Shown here: positions 43,998 through 48,978 of the stretch, piece by piece
Numbering within the stretch: the stretch's first letter is position 1
How the letters are laid out: each line of letters opens with the position of its first letter
NCBI GenBank assembly: GCA_945897955.1
Contig: CAMDGQ010000021.1
Coordinates: forward strand, 1 to 56,446
Direction: 5' to 3'
Origin: Tepidiphilus sp. J10
Lineage (GTDB): Bacteria > Pseudomonadota > Gammaproteobacteria > Burkholderiales > Thiobacillaceae
DNA length: 56,446 nt
The notes under the pieces: generated by a model
What the model was told of the DNA's origin: nothing
Seen by the model: the letters and a program-made list of their open reading frames with translations, nothing else
The model's database searches: none
Made by a program: the position numbers and the translations under genes

Positions 43998-45002
43998 ATG
44001 CATACCGGCACCACGCTCACCCAATTCATCATCGAAGAACAGCGCCACATCGCCGGCGCGACCGGCGAGTTCACCGCGCTGCTGAACGACATCGTCACCG
44101 CGATCAAGACCATTTCCAACGCCGTCAACAAGGGCGCCCTGATCGGCGTCATGGGTGCGCTGGAAACCGAGAACGTACAGGGTGAAACCCAGAAGAAGCT
44201 GGACGTGATCACCAATGAAATGATGATCCGCAGCAACGAATGGGCCGGCCATCTGGCCGGCATGGCGTCGGAAGAAATGGATGAGGTGTATCCGATTCCG
44301 ACCCGTTACCCGCTCGGCAAGTACCTGATGGTGTTCGATCCGCTCGATGGCTCCAGCAACGTCGATATCAACATCTCGGTCGGCACCATCTTCTCGATCC
44401 TGCGCGCGCCGGTGCCCAATCGCGCCGCTTCGGCGGCCGATTTTCTGCAACCCGGCGTCAAGCAGGTCTGCGCCGGTTATGCGCTGTACGGCTCCTCCAC
44501 CATGCTGGTGCTGACCACCGGCCATGGCGTCAACGGCTTCACGCTGGACCGCGACATCGGCGAGTTCATCCTGACTCACCCGGACATGAAGATTCCCGCC
44601 GACACCAAGGAATTCGCGATCAACGCCTCCAACCAGCGGTTCTGGGAGGCGCCGGTACAGCGTTATGTGTCTGAATGCCTGGAAGGCAGCACCGGCCCGC
44701 GCGGGCGCGACTTCAACATGCGCTGGGTGGCCTCGATGGTCGCGGAAGTGCATCGCATCCTGACTCGCGGCGGCATCTTCATGTATCCGCGCGACACCAA
44801 GGACGCCAGCAAGCCCGGCAAACTGCGCCTGCTCTACGAAGCCAACCCGATGAGCTTCATTGTCGAACAGGCCGGCGGCGTGTCTTCAACCGGCTACGAA
44901 CGCATCCTCGACATGGTCCCGGAAAATCTGCACCAGCGCGTGCCGGTAATTCTGGGGTCCAAGAACGAGGTGGAAGTGGTGCTGGGGTATCACAAGACTT
45001 GA
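43998..45002 (+). CDS. fbp: Fructose-1,6-bisphosphatase class I
   Basis: A 334-residue protein, the normal class I size. Metal-site motif [19 protein letters not shown] begins near residue 112; the acidic EMDEVYP and GGIFMYPRD plus [19 protein letters not shown] are family signatures. It converts fructose-1,6-bisphosphate to fructose-6-phosphate in gluconeogenesis or the Calvin cycle. AAAGGAAG lies about 8 bp before the start. It is separated from upstream genes by a small hairpin and ended by a strong terminator. Confidence 0.96.
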
Positions 45003-45015
45003 CTCTTGAACCTTG

Positions 45016-45050
45016 AAAAAACAAGGGCTCCGTTGGAGCCCTTGTTTTTC
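45016..45050 (+). terminator. Bidirectional terminator between fbp and the convergent 45065 gene
   Basis: A stem of about 15 bp (AACAAGGGCTCC at 45020-45031 paired with GGAGCCCTTGTT at 45035-45046) closes a GTT loop. It is followed by T residues on the plus strand and preceded by A residues, which gives a T-run on the minus strand, so it can end both convergent transcripts. Confidence 0.9.
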
Positions 45051-45064
45051 GGTATTGCGTGCTC

Positions 45065-45673
45065 TTAGTGGTACAGCACGTCGATGTAATTCTTGACATC
45101 CGGATTGTAGTTCCAGGTGACATTCGGGTTGGTATCGACAAACTGGGGGTGCGCAAGGTCGGCGGCCGATTTGAACAAAAGCCTGGCCTGGAATTCTGTC
45201 AGCGGATAAGTGCTGGTATCGGACAGACCCTTGGCGTTCAGCAGCAACACCAGGGCGCGCTGGGCGTAGAGCAGATCACCGGCAAGCGACGCGGACAGAA
45301 CTTCCTGGATCGTGGCGGCCGTATTGCCCGCGCTGGTCAAGGTCAGTAAACCGCCCGAGTCCTTGAAAATATAGTCATTCACCAGAAGGGGAAACTGAGC
45401 AAGGATCGTTGTTGACGGGAGGGAGGCATATTCACTGGTCAATGTTGAATGGCTCTTGCCGAGGGCAGCGCAGGTTTCTGTCTCGTGTCCCGACACATTG
45501 CCGGAGAGTTGGCCGGAAACAGTGCACTTCCACGGTGTTGCACCCAGTACCGGGCGACTGAGCAACGTGCCGATAACGACGGGCGCAGCCAGGCCGCCTT
45601 TGGCCAGACGGCGGCGCTGTTGGTCAATTTTCGGGCTGGCTTCTGGGGTGCTGTGTTCAATCGGATTGTTCAT
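45065..45673 (-). CDS. Twin-arginine-leader protein of unknown function, candidate substrate of the HPr-rel-A cluster
   Basis: A 202-residue protein. Near residues 20-45 it has QQRRRLAKGGLAAPVVIGTL followed by LSRPVLGA, a Tat-like or leader segment with three arginines. Then come two cysteines 18 residues apart (WKCTVSGQLSGNVSG and HETETCAALGKS) and a helical C-terminal half ending NPDVKNYIDVLYH. I do not recognise a catalytic domain. GGxxAPVV leaders and CTVSG-type starts are, as far as I recall, common among proteins encoded with HprK-related kinases, so I propose it as the cluster's target. The frame extends to TTG at 45712; the ATG at 45673 has GAGGGA upstream and is preferred. It lies 126 bp after the nucleotidyltransferase gene, same strand. 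Confidence 0.6.
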   Translation of the reverse strand: MNNPIEHSTPEASPKIDQQRRRLAKGGLAAPVVIGTLLSRPVLGATPWKCTVSGQLSGNVSGHETETCAALGKSHSTLTSEYASLPSTTILAQFPLLVNDYIFKDSGGLLTLTSAGNTAATIQEVLSASLAGDLLYAQRALVLLLNAKGLSDTSTYPLTEFQARLLFKSAADLAHPQFVDTNPNVTWNYNPDVKNYIDVLYH

Positions 45674-45799
45674 GGCGGGAATTCCCTCGGTAATTGCATG
45701 TTTATTAAGCAATATTGGTGCCAGGTTAAAAGCGACATATAAAACAATGGCTTGAAAACTGATGCCGGATGGATTGTAAAAAATATCGACACATCCTCG

Positions 45800-46885
45800 T
45801 CAATCCTGTTCCCGATCCCGTCGTCCTGCCTGGTGCAGCAAATGCGGCAGCAACAGCCGCCACGGCATGCGCAGGTAATGACCGCGAACGTACAGGGCTT
45901 GCTTGGCCAGTCCGGACCAGCGTCCTTGGCAGGAAGCATGCGAAGAAGCCAGCCCGGCATCGAACAGTCGCCGCATCATCGGGCGCTGCCAGATAGGCGG
46001 CGGCGATGGACAACCGGCGAGGGTGGCTTGCGGAATCGGGGTTTGCAGCCAGCGAAGGCAACAATCCATCGCGTAATACAAAGGTCGCCCCAGGTTCAGG
46101 GTTCGCGCGCGCGCCAGCAGGTCGGTCCAGAAGCATGGTGCGGTTGAAAATGCACGCAGCATGGCATCCAGATCAACCAGATCGCGCAAACCATGACCCC
46201 ATTCACCTTCGTGAAACAAATGGCAGGCGGAATGGAGTACCAGATCGGTTGGCGCCGGAATATGCAGTCCGGGCAGGTCGGGCAAGGCTTGCGCGGCAGC
46301 AAGGATCGGATCGGCATGGGTGGGGATGCGTGCGGTTTCCGGCAACAAGTTGTGATGCACGTCCAACACCGTGCCGCGCCGGATGTGGGTCATCGGCGGC
46401 AGTTCATGCATCCATTGCCGGTAATAGCGCTGGTCGTAGGCGTCCTGTTTCTGCGTGTGCCAGCCGGCCAGCAGGAGTGCGGCCTCGGTCTGGTCAAGTT
46501 GAGCGCGCGGCACAAGAATGTCGATGTCGCTGAACAACCGACCGGCGGCCGGAGGTAAATCGGCAATGGCATAGGCGGCACCCTTGAGCAGCAGGACCGG
46601 GCCGTCGATGCCGGCCAGCGCATGCGCCACCCGGCGCGCTTCCCAGCGCACCGCCTGGCGTTGCTTGGCGGCAATGCTGCGCGCAGCGGTCAGATGCGGT
46701 CGTACCGACCCCGGCAACCGGCCATCCAGCCCCAATGCTTCGGCCTTTACCGCCAGGCGCGACAGCAAGCCGGCGCTGGCCGCCTGGCGCAGCAACAGAT
46801 CCCAGGCCGCCAGGTCGAGTATTGCCATGCGGGTCGGATCGCGCAGGACGTCGAGCAGGGGCTGGCAGCGGCGCGCGAAACTCAT
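45800..46885 (-). CDS. Nucleotidyltransferase-fold protein (NTP_transf_5 type) of the HPr-rel-A cluster
   Basis: A 361-residue protein. The nucleotidyltransferase core reads GPVLLLKGAAYAIADL, then RLFSDIDILVPRAQLDQTEA with metal Asp residues D120 and D122. The rest (TVLDVHHNLLPETARIPT, LVLHSACHLFHEGEWGHGLR) fits the uncharacterised nucleotidyltransferase family found beside HprK-related kinases. It may transfer NMP to a protein or other acceptor; the substrate is unknown. The ATGA overlap with the kinase gene indicates coupling. A start 23 codons upstream is open but overlaps the kinase gene more than needed. Confidence 0.8.
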   Translation of the reverse strand: MSFARRCQPLLDVLRDPTRMAILDLAAWDLLLRQAASAGLLSRLAVKAEALGLDGRLPGSVRPHLTAARSIAAKQRQAVRWEARRVAHALAGIDGPVLLLKGAAYAIADLPPAAGRLFSDIDILVPRAQLDQTEAALLLAGWHTQKQDAYDQRYYRQWMHELPPMTHIRRGTVLDVHHNLLPETARIPTHADPILAAAQALPDLPGLHIPAPTDLVLHSACHLFHEGEWGHGLRDLVDLDAMLRAFSTAPCFWTDLLARARTLNLGRPLYYAMDCCLRWLQTPIPQATLAGCPSPPPIWQRPMMRRLFDAGLASSHASCQGRWSGLAKQALYVRGHYLRMPWRLLLPHLLHQAGRRDREQD

Positions 46886-47784
46886 GCCGCCAACTCCGCG
46901 AACATGCGCAACGCGTCGTCCAGACGCGAGTACTCGAAGTCGTGGCAGGCGCAAGCGTCCATCAGGCCGGCGTTGAGATCGAAACCGAGACTGCCCAGCA
47001 GGCTGTAGTTGAAGGCATGGCTGGCGGTGTGCAGGAACGCATCGGCGCGCGAATGCGGGCTCAAGCGCGCCTCGGCGCCTTCGCGCCAGCGCGGGAAGAT
47101 GACCCAGGCCGGCCGCGCTTTCTCGCCGACGCGGGCGACGCTGTCCGCGCTTGGCCGCACATGCGCCACCGTCCCCTTGTGCGTGTCATACGCCGGCGCG
47201 CCGATCACCGCGTCGGGAAACGCGTGCCGGATCACGTCGATGGATGCGTTCTTCAGGCTGACCGGACGTGCCAGTCCGACCAGCAGTCCATCGTCGCGGT
47301 CGATCAAGGTGATTTCATCGGACAGCAGGCGCCAGCCGGACAACATCAGCGCGGCGGTGAGTGTGCTTTTCCCGGCGCCGGGATCGCCCGGCAGCACGAC
47401 GGCGCGGCCGTTCATTTCCAGCACGGCGGCATGCAGCATCAGGTAATGGTGGGCGTGGCCGGCGATGCACCAGTTCATGCCCCACTCCAGCAAGGCAAAG
47501 GCGTGGTTGGCAGGCAAGGGTTTGAATGGCGAGTGGCCGTCGAACCAGAAATTGATTTGCGGTCGCAGCCAGCGACGCAAGCCGGTCGGGGAGCCGACTC
47601 GAACATGAAAATCACTGAACTCGCCGCTATCGAGCGGGAAATCGGCATAAAGCCGCAGCAAGCCTTCGGCTACCTGGGGCATTGGGCTGTGGATGCGAGT
47701 GGCGAAGGGGCCGGTGCGCAGCGCCAGTTCATTGTCGGCAAGACGGCGACGAACCTGCGCCAGCGACAGGTCACCCAGTTTCAT
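46882..47784 (-). CDS. HprK-related kinase A
   Basis: A 300-residue protein. The P-loop GDPGAGKS spans residues 133-140, followed by TLTAALMLSGWRLLSDEITL with a Walker B-like segment, as in the C-terminal domain of HPr kinase/phosphorylase. The first about 115 residues (LSLAQVRRRLADNELALRTG, FHVRVGSP) are specific to the related family. No HPr or PTS genes are nearby, so the target is probably not HPr. It is linked by 4-bp overlaps to a PqqD-like gene upstream and the nucleotidyltransferase gene downstream. Confidence 0.85.
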   Translation of the reverse strand: MKLGDLSLAQVRRRLADNELALRTGPFATRIHSPMPQVAEGLLRLYADFPLDSGEFSDFHVRVGSPTGLRRWLRPQINFWFDGHSPFKPLPANHAFALLEWGMNWCIAGHAHHYLMLHAAVLEMNGRAVVLPGDPGAGKSTLTAALMLSGWRLLSDEITLIDRDDGLLVGLARPVSLKNASIDVIRHAFPDAVIGAPAYDTHKGTVAHVRPSADSVARVGEKARPAWVIFPRWREGAEARLSPHSRADAFLHTASHAFNYSLLGSLGFDLNAGLMDACACHDFEYSRLDDALRMFAELAA

Positions 47785-48071
47785 GCCACCGGCTCCGCGA
47801 ATTCTCGCTTGGCAAGCTCGTCAAGAATGCCGGTCAAGGCGGTATTGGCCTCGTTTTGAGCAACTTCCGCGGCTTCGGCGAGCAGGCTGGCCAGGCTGGA
47901 TTCATCGCTTGGCGTCGTCATCAGACGCAACAATATCAACGCAGCGGCATCCGAAAACCGGTGCGTGTCGCCTGCGGCGCCATGAAAAAAGACGTGTTCA
48001 CCCTCCCATTCGCGGTGATGCAGATCGGCTTCCGGGGGAATGCGCCAAAGTCGGGCGGAATCGGGGGTCAT
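47781..48071 (-). CDS. PqqD-family peptide chaperone-like protein of the HPr-rel-A cluster
   Basis: A 96-residue protein of PqqD size with the conserved beta-wing start RLWRIPPEADLHHREWEGEH and a helical second half rich in Leu, Ala and Glu (LLRLMTTPSDESSLASLLAE). PqqD proteins are winged-helix domains that bind leader peptides of ribosomally made, modified peptides (RRE). The frame continues upstream into prmC; ATG 48071 is the sensible start because the upstream part is antisense-free junk of prmC. It overlaps the kinase gene by 4 bp. Confidence 0.8.
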   Translation of the reverse strand: MTPDSARLWRIPPEADLHHREWEGEHVFFHGAAGDTHRFSDAAALILLRLMTTPSDESSLASLLAEAAEVAQNEANTALTGILDELAKREFAEPVA

Positions 48072-48105: not shown

Positions 48106-48978
48106 TCAGTCTGCCGCACCCGGCCAGCGGCCGCCGCTGACGCGTTCCAGCCCGGCCAGATCGCGTGCGGTGAAAATCTGCTCGAAGCCGGTCTGTCGCA
48201 GTAATTCACCGACGGCGGCAGCCTGATCGAATCCATGTTCCAGCAACAGCCAGCCTGTTGCGCTCAAATGCGCCGGCGCGCCGATGATGATGGCGCACAG
48301 GTCGCGCAGCCCGTCGTGGCCGGAGGAGAGCGCCAGGCCAGGCTCGAAGCGCAGGTCGCCGGCGGTCAGGTGCGGGTCGGCAGCGGCGATGTAGGGTGGG
48401 TTGGAGACGATCAGGTCGAATTGCTGATCGCCGAGTGCCGCATACCAGTTGCCCGCCGCGCAGTGCATATTGCCGGCGCCCAGTTTGTGCGCATTGGCTT
48501 GCGTGACAGCCAGCGCCTCGATCGAGATATCCACCGCCAATACCCGCGCCAGCGGGCGCTTGAGCGCCAGCGTGACGGCAATGGCGCCGCTGCCCGAGCC
48601 CAGGTCGAGGAGATGGCTGGAGACGTGTTCGGGAACGTGCTTCAAAGCGATTTCAACCAGCAATTCGGTATCCGGGCGTGGAATCAGTACAGCCGGTGAA
48701 ACGCTGAATTCGAGACCGAAGAACTCGCGCTGCCCCAGGATATAGGCGACCGGCTCGCCGCCTGCACGGCGTTCGATCAGGTCCGCAATGGCGCGTTGTT
48801 GCACCGGGCTTGGTGTATCGCGATCATGTGCGATGAGCCAGGCGTGATCGACCGCGAGCGCATGCGCAAGCAGCACGCGGGCCTCGATGCGCGCTTCGCG
48901 TTTGTCCAGTTGCAGTGCTTCGGCCAGCCGTTGTGTGGCGTCGGCCAGCAACCCGGCAACGGTTGCGGAAACATTCAT
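48106..48978 (-). CDS. prmC: Peptide chain release factor N5-glutamine methyltransferase PrmC (HemK)
   Basis: A 290-residue protein with the N-terminal helical domain and the SAM-binding [32 protein letters not shown] and the catalytic motif [17 protein letters not shown]. It methylates the Gln of GGQ in release factors. It overlaps prfA by 4 bp, the classical prfA-prmC arrangement. The PqqD-like gene begins 34 bp downstream, so the HPr-rel-A genes may share its transcript. Confidence 0.95.

Follow-up and report, generated by a model that had tools for sequence, protein, structure and literature searches.

Four genes on the minus strand of a contig from Tepidiphilus sp. J10 (Thiobacillaceae; GenBank assembly GCA_945897955.1, contig CAMDGQ010000021.1) encode what we regard, at a probability of roughly 0.6, as a leader-guided protein-modification and export cassette. 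The whole stretch of DNA analysed, 56,446 nucleotides, is referred to as the window, and the cassette occupies positions 45065..48071. In order of transcription, the genes specify a PqqD-like leader-binding protein of the HPr-rel-A system (96 amino acids (aa), 47781..48071), an HprK-related kinase A (300 aa, 46882..47784), a nucleotidyltransferase of the NTP_transf_5 family (361 aa, 45800..46885) and a leader-bearing partner protein (202 aa, 45065..45673), the candidate substrate. An earlier note, made from the sequence alone, had singled out these genes, and their layout was borne out: bases 47781-47784 are common to the PqqD and kinase genes and bases 46882-46885 to the kinase and nucleotidyltransferase genes (4-bp overlaps), and 126 bp separate the nucleotidyltransferase stop from the partner ATG at 45673. 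Since the kinase, the nucleotidyltransferase and the leader-binding helper lie almost always beside a protein with a constant leader and a variable body, that protein is the likely target, and gene comparison makes it probable that the partner is the substrate of these enzymes. Comparison across genomes establishes the gene partnership, the constancy of the leader, the exchangeability of the bodies, a near-invariant Cys/Ser motif in type-1 partners and the conservation of residues of catalytic type.

Association of the partner gene with the cassette

Loci (L) and genomes (G) were collected from several sources. The kinase scored above cut-off in 71 of 149 relatives, from which 60 regions, 57 of them kinase-bearing, were taken, so that not all 71 genomes are represented; L089-L091 match the kinase weakly and do not belong to the family. 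From named genomes, a scan contributed the best 80 of at least 191 confirmed relatives, some of which repeat contigs already sampled; their titles name beta-, gamma- and alphaproteobacteria, and the three closest among these 80 are a Thiobacillaceae metagenome-assembled genome (MAG) and two MAGs classed to phylum only. Twenty order-level places, 16 of them kinase-bearing, supplied additional regions, as did 40 of the 53 places that a phylum search listed; in that phylum search, 51 of 397 genomes carried a kinase above cut-off. Removal of identical sequences reduced the kinase set from 193 to 186. A gene counted as partner if it lay on the kinase's strand, no more than 3.5 kb away, and matched the leader profile or the type-1 partner profile.

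Absence of the substrate gene from other clusters had been set beforehand as the result that would speak against a modification system, and the proposal survived it: a leader-bearing partner stands beside 177 of the 186 distinct kinase genes. This count is more descriptive than testing, since the leader profile was made from type-1 leaders and 17 others, that is, from the counted proteins themselves. Of the nine loci without a partner, L048, L056 and L064 reach the contig end on the partner side. The type-1 profile was found near 133 of the 138 kinases in L033-L172, some of these matches being weak and confined to the leader, and in 79 of the best 80 named loci. Among the 22,402 open reading frames (ORFs) of all loci, 41 others scored 8 bits or more against the leader profile; 14 of these are either second copies or the partners of loci that are duplicated or split. 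The 177 partners comprise 132 of type 1 (at least 38 bits with the type-1 profile), 35 of type 2, six of type 3 and four others. The order partner-PqqD-kinase-nucleotidyltransferase prevails (135/177), and the window's order, with the partner last, occurs in 18.

A survey of 399 genomes of the order gave a kinase above cut-off in 66, a partner-profile match in 62 and both in 57, so that the partner profile is present in 57 of 66 kinase-positive and 5 of 333 kinase-negative genomes (Fisher p 3e-53, uncorrected for kinship; the six to eight best first-look candidates were scored per genome, and absences are soft). Inspection of the exceptions strengthened the association. Three of the partner-only genomes (G194, G257 and G363) match from profile position 79 on, within frames of 1046, 1301 and 342 aa (the sequence was inspected for G363 alone), and the other two (G214 and G453) match weakly to the leader part. 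Each of the nine genomes that have the kinase but gave no profile match (G178, G204, G236, G281, G294, G308, G321, G404 and G429) has another small leader-bearing protein just upstream, detected by a pattern search or, in two cases, through a weak profile match. Leader-free matches from position 79 inside frames of 342-2888 aa were observed in G022 (contig C22), G156 (contig C65), G194, G257 and G363.

The partnership is also present on plasmids. In Vibrio alfacsensis a leader-bearing 'hypothetical protein' is followed by kinase and nucleotidyltransferase, and in Sphingomonas parapaucimobilis by PqqD, kinase and nucleotidyltransferase. The Vibrio plasmid has an unannotated 84-aa ORF in the PqqD position (L235:3859-4113), for which hhalign against the PqqD profile gave no significant match.

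Leader, body and motif of the partner protein

The partner of the window matched nothing in Pfam or NCBIfam at E<=1. Searches of 63 type-1 partners against the same databases gave no convincing match (two stray single-member Pfam matches), those of nine other partners one stray NCBIfam match (E 0.04), and those of the two plasmid partners, against Pfam alone, nothing; the partner profile found nothing among PDB sequences at E<=1. For the AlphaFold2 (AF2) model (pLDDT 70, pTM 0.61) the best Foldseek match in the PDB has an E of 5.4, so no fold is claimed.

Residues 1-44 (45542..45673) form a predicted export signal of the twin-arginine translocation (Tat) type, with RRR at positions 20-22 and a cleavage site placed by eye. 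Among the aligned type-1 homologues, R20 is present in 127 of 128 and R21 in all 128; the leaders of 175 of 176 distinct partners contain RR, in 173 as RRx0-2[FLIM], and the stretch that follows the twin arginine is, as judged by eye, moderately hydrophobic. A TatC protein is encoded in the window's genome (TIGR00945, 233 bits, contig C34 of G000). The 'GG-A-P-V-V leader' of the earlier note belongs to a twin-arginine signal (RRRLAKGGLAAPVVIGTLLSRPVLG). A double-glycine leader was considered and rejected, because the conserved part consists of RR, TLxSxP and an [AG]-type end.

The leader is steady while the mature part varies, which is the pattern expected of cargo under a constant leader. Four close relatives of the window (L037, L049, L052 and L067) share 85-90% identity in the kinase and 70-82% in the leader, and 20-33% in the mature part; the fifth, L033, is an exception (leader 85%, mature part 76%). 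In eight further relatives with kinases of 66-71% identity, the leader is 52-73% and the mature part 24-49% identical, the upper value belonging to L047 (kinase 68%), whose mature part is closer to the window's than that of L037 (33%). The bodies of the 45 non-type-1 partners score 0-32 bits with the type-1 profile and look dissimilar by eye, and partners in general span about 130-290 aa. In the window's genus, two partner genes accompany one enzyme set at L035, L036, L041 and L046. The partner at L187:6179-6625 has a low-complexity mature part rich in Ser and in Asn/Gly.

Near the N-terminus of the mature part lies C50-T-V-S53-G-Q-L-S57-G-N (45497..45526), a candidate modification site that stands out in the 129-row type-1 alignment, from which partner ORFs below 25 bits were excluded (profile A2 combined the window's partner with 62 of 73 listed partners above 60 bits). 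Two conserved cysteines had been noticed in the single sequence, and both are upheld, C50 in 128 of 129 homologues and C68 in 121 of 128. S53 is found in 128 and S57 in 127 of 129 sequences, and the only columns conserved to at least 98% (gaps at most 30%, start Met aside) are R20, R21, C50, S53 and S57. The motif often reads C-x(1-3)-S-[GA]-x2-S-[GA]-N; the strict pattern C-x2-4-S-x2-3-S within residues 26-95 fits 117 of 129 rows, and the 12 misses differ mostly in spacing.

A different motif, [ST]C[WFY]xS, is present among the 42 C-terminal residues in 31 of the 45 non-type-1 partners (41 in a looser form), where 1000 shuffles averaged 0.12 and never exceeded 2, although it was picked after inspection of the same sequences in which it was counted. 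Furthermore, six changes of partner type are required on a FastTree phylogeny built from 164 kinases, where the minimum possible is three; the type therefore tracks kinase lineage, the sequences are non-independent, and the shuffle statistics exaggerate the significance of the C-terminal motif. A single motif S-x-[aromatic]-x-S for all types was also considered, and is not claimed because the middle position in type 1 varies too much (F 28, M 22, Q 18 and A 18 of 129).

The kinase and the PqqD-like protein

The kinase scores 397.8 bits with TIGR04352 (cut-off 200), which places it in the HPr-rel-A kinase family. Its P-loop GDPGAGKS (47365..47388, minus strand) contains G136, G138 and K139, invariant in 18 homologues, as are H118, D156 and E157, and the set H118/K139/D156/E157 lines up with the His, Lys and Asp-Asp of the HPr kinase 1jb1 (E 0.0013). 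One review (PMC9266682) describes a His-Lys-Asp-Asp motif as required in lasso peptide kinases. A true HPr kinase/phosphorylase was rejected, as TIGR00679 gave 25.9 bits against a cut-off of 240.

The PqqD-like protein, adjacent to the kinase, narrowly passes TIGR04353 (PqqD_rel_X; 36.4 bits, cut-off 35) and scores 22.4 bits with PF05402 (cut-off 23.4). In three loci of genus g11 (L056, L062 and L064), the PqqD domain and the kinase form a single ORF of 434-441 aa. Beside 19 of the 186 kinases PqqD went unrecognised: these are the three fusions, L046, which is cut off by the end of its contig, and L176, L178, L203, L204, L208, L220, L215, L217-L219 and L221-L225. The last nine loci (L215 onward in this list) belong to the window's class but lie outside its order, and have an ORF of 62-96 aa at or near the PqqD position; since the hhalign scores are weak (best E 2e-4 with probability 24 for L215, and E 1e-3 with probability 9 for L225), these ORFs cannot be called PqqD. 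The identity of PqqD to the window's protein is 60-75% in the five close relatives. A head-to-tail pair of cassettes from different lineages is found at L067:7453-12862 (G085): the first has the window's arrangement, PqqD-kinase-nucleotidyltransferase-partner, with 87% kinase identity, and the second is a kinase-nucleotidyltransferase pair (50% and 40%) whose PqqD the profile did not recognise.

The nucleotidyltransferase

The nucleotidyltransferase core proposed for the third gene was borne out by sequence and model. PF14907 is the sole Pfam family on the protein (195.7 bits, cut-off 31.2), D120, D122 and D175 are invariant among 43 sequences (the window's and 42 of 51 listed ORFs, alignment A3), and the AF2 model (pLDDT 95.7) has a nucleotidyltransferase fold. 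The putative catalytic DxD, D120-D122, lies at 46520..46528, and a catalytic role of the three Asp residues is presumed. Foldseek related the model to ANT(2'')-Ia, to LnuA and, as best match (E 1.3e-3, probability 1.00), to a MenAT1 complex chain, with nothing at E<=0.001, and the profile found nothing among PDB sequences at E<=1. With its Asp residues and modelled fold, the protein is classed as a predicted nucleotidyltransferase of the pol-beta type.

A tblastn search also linked the enzyme (29% identity, E 1e-4) to a Deinococcus plasmid protein that carries a lasso B2 annotation and contains PF14907 together with a transglutaminase-like domain; lasso-type proteins therefore share this enzyme family. 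Fusions of nucleotidyltransferases with lasso B2 proteins are described in two reviews (PMC9266682, PMC8498205).

Exosortase A and the wider context

Exosortase A (XrtA) scored above cut-off in 90 of the 399 genomes of the order, in 62 of the 66 with the kinase (all except G094, G183, G217 and G447) and in 28 of the other 333 (p 2e-45, uncorrected for kinship). Contrasts within genera indicate that this link exceeds mere relatedness: in genus g27, for example, kinase and XrtA occur together in four genomes, and eight are listed with neither above cut-off. Where both genes are on one contig (26 genomes), they are 12-84 kb apart in 19, about 105 kb apart in G027 and 0.6-2.8 Mb apart in six, distances that are biased by short contigs; in the window's genome XrtA is on contig C19 and the cassette on C21. 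The kinase of L204 stands amid genes that by eye are of exosortase-A exopolysaccharide type. So close a tie to exosortase A points to the exopolysaccharide matrix as the place where the product may act.

A gene resembling a TPR-sulfotransferase was seen by eye between kinase and nucleotidyltransferase at L195, L201 and L209, and a gene resembling asparagine synthase after the nucleotidyltransferase at L201 and L209. According to one lasso review, a sulfotransferase gene also occurs in lasso clusters of Firmicutes.

Proposed function and alternative explanations

For a leader-guided modification and export cassette, the following course can be envisaged. The PqqD-like protein would bind the partner's leader in the cytoplasm and pass the partner to the HprK-type kinase, which would phosphorylate the motif Ser, S53 or S57 in the window's protein and, in many other partners, the Ser of the C-terminal [S/T]-C-[W/F/Y]-x-S. 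The NTP_transf_5 enzyme might then attach a hexose or a nucleotidyl group to the phosphate, as PsmN reportedly does after PsmK; Tat would export the modified partner, the leader would be removed, and the product may act in the exopolysaccharide matrix to which exosortase A points. From the sequence evidence we lean towards phosphorylation of the partner. The addition of a hexose or nucleotide on top of the phosphate, which is argued by analogy, is tentative and somewhat less probable than its converse. The fullest version is doubtful, namely a substrate-swapping phosphoglycosylation with Tat export, in which one leader serves unlike proteins, a phosphate-linked sugar or nucleotide is put on the Ser of the Cys/Ser motif, and the product is tied, perhaps covalently via the phosphate, to the exosortase-A exopolysaccharide.

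Several observations weigh against a leader-guided modification cassette. Although the usual partner side of the kinase is in view, no partner was found at L163, L203, L204, L208, L220 and L232, of which L203 and L208 are near a contig end. The PqqD assignment passes its cut-off by a narrow margin, PqqD is missed beside the 19 kinases given above, and in the eight further relatives its identity to the window's protein falls to 29-38%, where the kinases retain 66-71% and the leaders 52-73%. A partner of 202 aa with conserved positions throughout far exceeds the core of a ribosomally synthesized and post-translationally modified peptide (RiPP), the position of the motif differs, being N-terminal in the mature part of type 1 and close to the C-terminus elsewhere, and the sequences are interrelated, the partner type tracking the kinase tree. 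The conserved Ser and Cys residues could be structural, in a disulfide or in the fold, instead of modified, and Tat targeting alone could explain the conserved twin-arginine leader.

In an unlikely alternative, the enzymes modify a polysaccharide precursor or another protein, the partner is simply a protein of the matrix or surface exported by Tat, and the genes are neighbours through a shared process. The exosortase A tie (62/66 against 28/333 genomes), the exopolysaccharide-type surroundings of the L204 kinase and the occurrence of type-1 positions 79 onward, free of leader and cassette, in ORFs of G194, G257 and G363 would all suit such a protein. It does not account well for leaders and kinases that stay alike while the bodies diverge or are replaced, a constancy better explained by the cassette recognising the leader than by simple co-location, nor for duplicated partner genes served by one enzyme set or for a PqqD-like protein, which implies a peptide ligand. 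That same PqqD family, together with the leader and the short conserved Cys/Ser motif, would also be expected if the partner were a precursor trimmed after modification into a peptide-derived small molecule (a cofactor or RiPP), and kinase, PqqD and nucleotidyltransferase genes do occur in lasso clusters, with PF14907 in a lasso-B2-annotated protein. We nevertheless consider a trimmed precursor improbable, since a protease or cyclase gene was not seen in the cluster, the type-1 mature domain has conserved positions as far as its C-terminus, and the leader resembles an export signal. The top Foldseek match of the nucleotidyltransferase model, the MenAT1 complex chain (E 1.3e-3), brings to mind a toxin-antitoxin-like unit, with a MenT/AbiEii-type nucleotidyltransferase restrained by the kinase; MenA3 reportedly inactivates MenT3 by phosphorylation. 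Such a unit, which we hold to be very improbable, would not account for a PqqD protein with an exported partner, the stable gene order, the rarity of partner-type changes along the kinase tree or the exosortase link.

With modification and export of the partner as the preferred reading, an orphan cassette found across Proteobacteria gains a concrete candidate substrate and a candidate site. If it is true, leader-guided kinase chemistry is not confined to short lasso peptides but takes in exported proteins of larger size, and it is connected to biofilm exopolysaccharide, and a role is provided for 'hypothetical proteins' for which no family model was found.

Other features of the locus

Upstream of the cassette on the same strand is prmC (TIGR03534, 287.3 bits), which ends at 48106, 34 bp before the PqqD start, preceded by ORFs that by eye resemble prfA and hemA. 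The linkage to hemA-prfA-prmC stated in the earlier note thus holds for this contig, but it is local, as among the loci collected prmC was recognised beside the cassette mainly in the window's own family. A terminator-like hairpin 3' of the partner gene (45010..45053, minus strand, -25 kcal/mol) has a z of -6.85 and is nevertheless absent from the list of the consensus scan, and an ORF on the opposite strand terminates at 45002. The window's genome consists of 128 contigs at 92% completeness.

Comparison with known systems

The window's kinase and adjacent PqqD protein exceed both curated cut-offs of the HPr-rel-A system, whose models name no function, and the scanned partners (63 of type 1 and nine others) are covered by no NCBIfam or Pfam model. 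A literature search, with most subscription papers outside its scope, returned nothing on HPr-rel-A or the HprK-related kinase, and the papers listed by a wider search looked unrelated. The system had been called unexplored, which agrees with this result, but its kinase and PqqD protein are already catalogued by NCBI as HPr-rel-A. Likewise, nothing was found on PF14907 or on five short motifs, and, lasso reviews aside, nothing was apparent that links exosortase or XrtA with HPr kinase, PqqD or nucleotidyltransferase, or that links PqqD with Tat, HprK or RiPPs for this system. A term search of two papers on RiPP recognition elements (PMC12710340, PMC7470986) found neither the word HPr nor the word kinase. 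Other HprK-like kinases, SynChlorMet ScmC and the HprK-related kinase B, are matched weakly by the window's kinase (22.6 and 27 bits), far under their cut-offs (125 and 200).

The closest chemistry is that of lasso peptides. Pseudomycoidin is made with PsmK and PsmN (PadeK and ThcoK are further examples), an HprK-type kinase and a nucleotidyltransferase as here, PsmN being likened to the window's enzyme through its description as a nucleotidyltransferase. According to two reviews (PMC9266682, PMC8498205), PsmK phosphorylates the C-terminal Ser and PsmN places one or two hexoses on the phospho-Ser, while one of them leaves open nucleotidylation by PsmN as a first step. Among rumen genomes analysed in a lasso context, HPr kinase was recorded in about 58%, PqqD in about 46% and nucleotidyltransferase in about 30%, as given in one survey (PMC7533575). 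The modification system proposed in the earlier note keeps its standing after the co-occurrence test, with the amendments that the leader is of Tat type and that the chemistry has a precedent in PsmK and PsmN. Lasso precursors are short and accompanied by a B2 protease and a C cyclase, unlike the partners of about 130-290 aa with Tat-type leaders; a lasso peptide cluster was rejected for the window, where a check of the nucleotidyltransferase (PF14907 alone), prmC, the prfA- and hemA-like ORFs and the opposite-strand ORF gave no B2 protease and no asparagine-synthase-type cyclase, and the partner has 202 aa. Exosortase A systems are the other point of contact, as XrtA accompanies the kinase in 62 of 66 genomes and lies within 84 kb in 19 of 26 same-contig genomes; the cassette differs from them in the Tat-type leader of the window's partner and in its location on a contig separate from XrtA.

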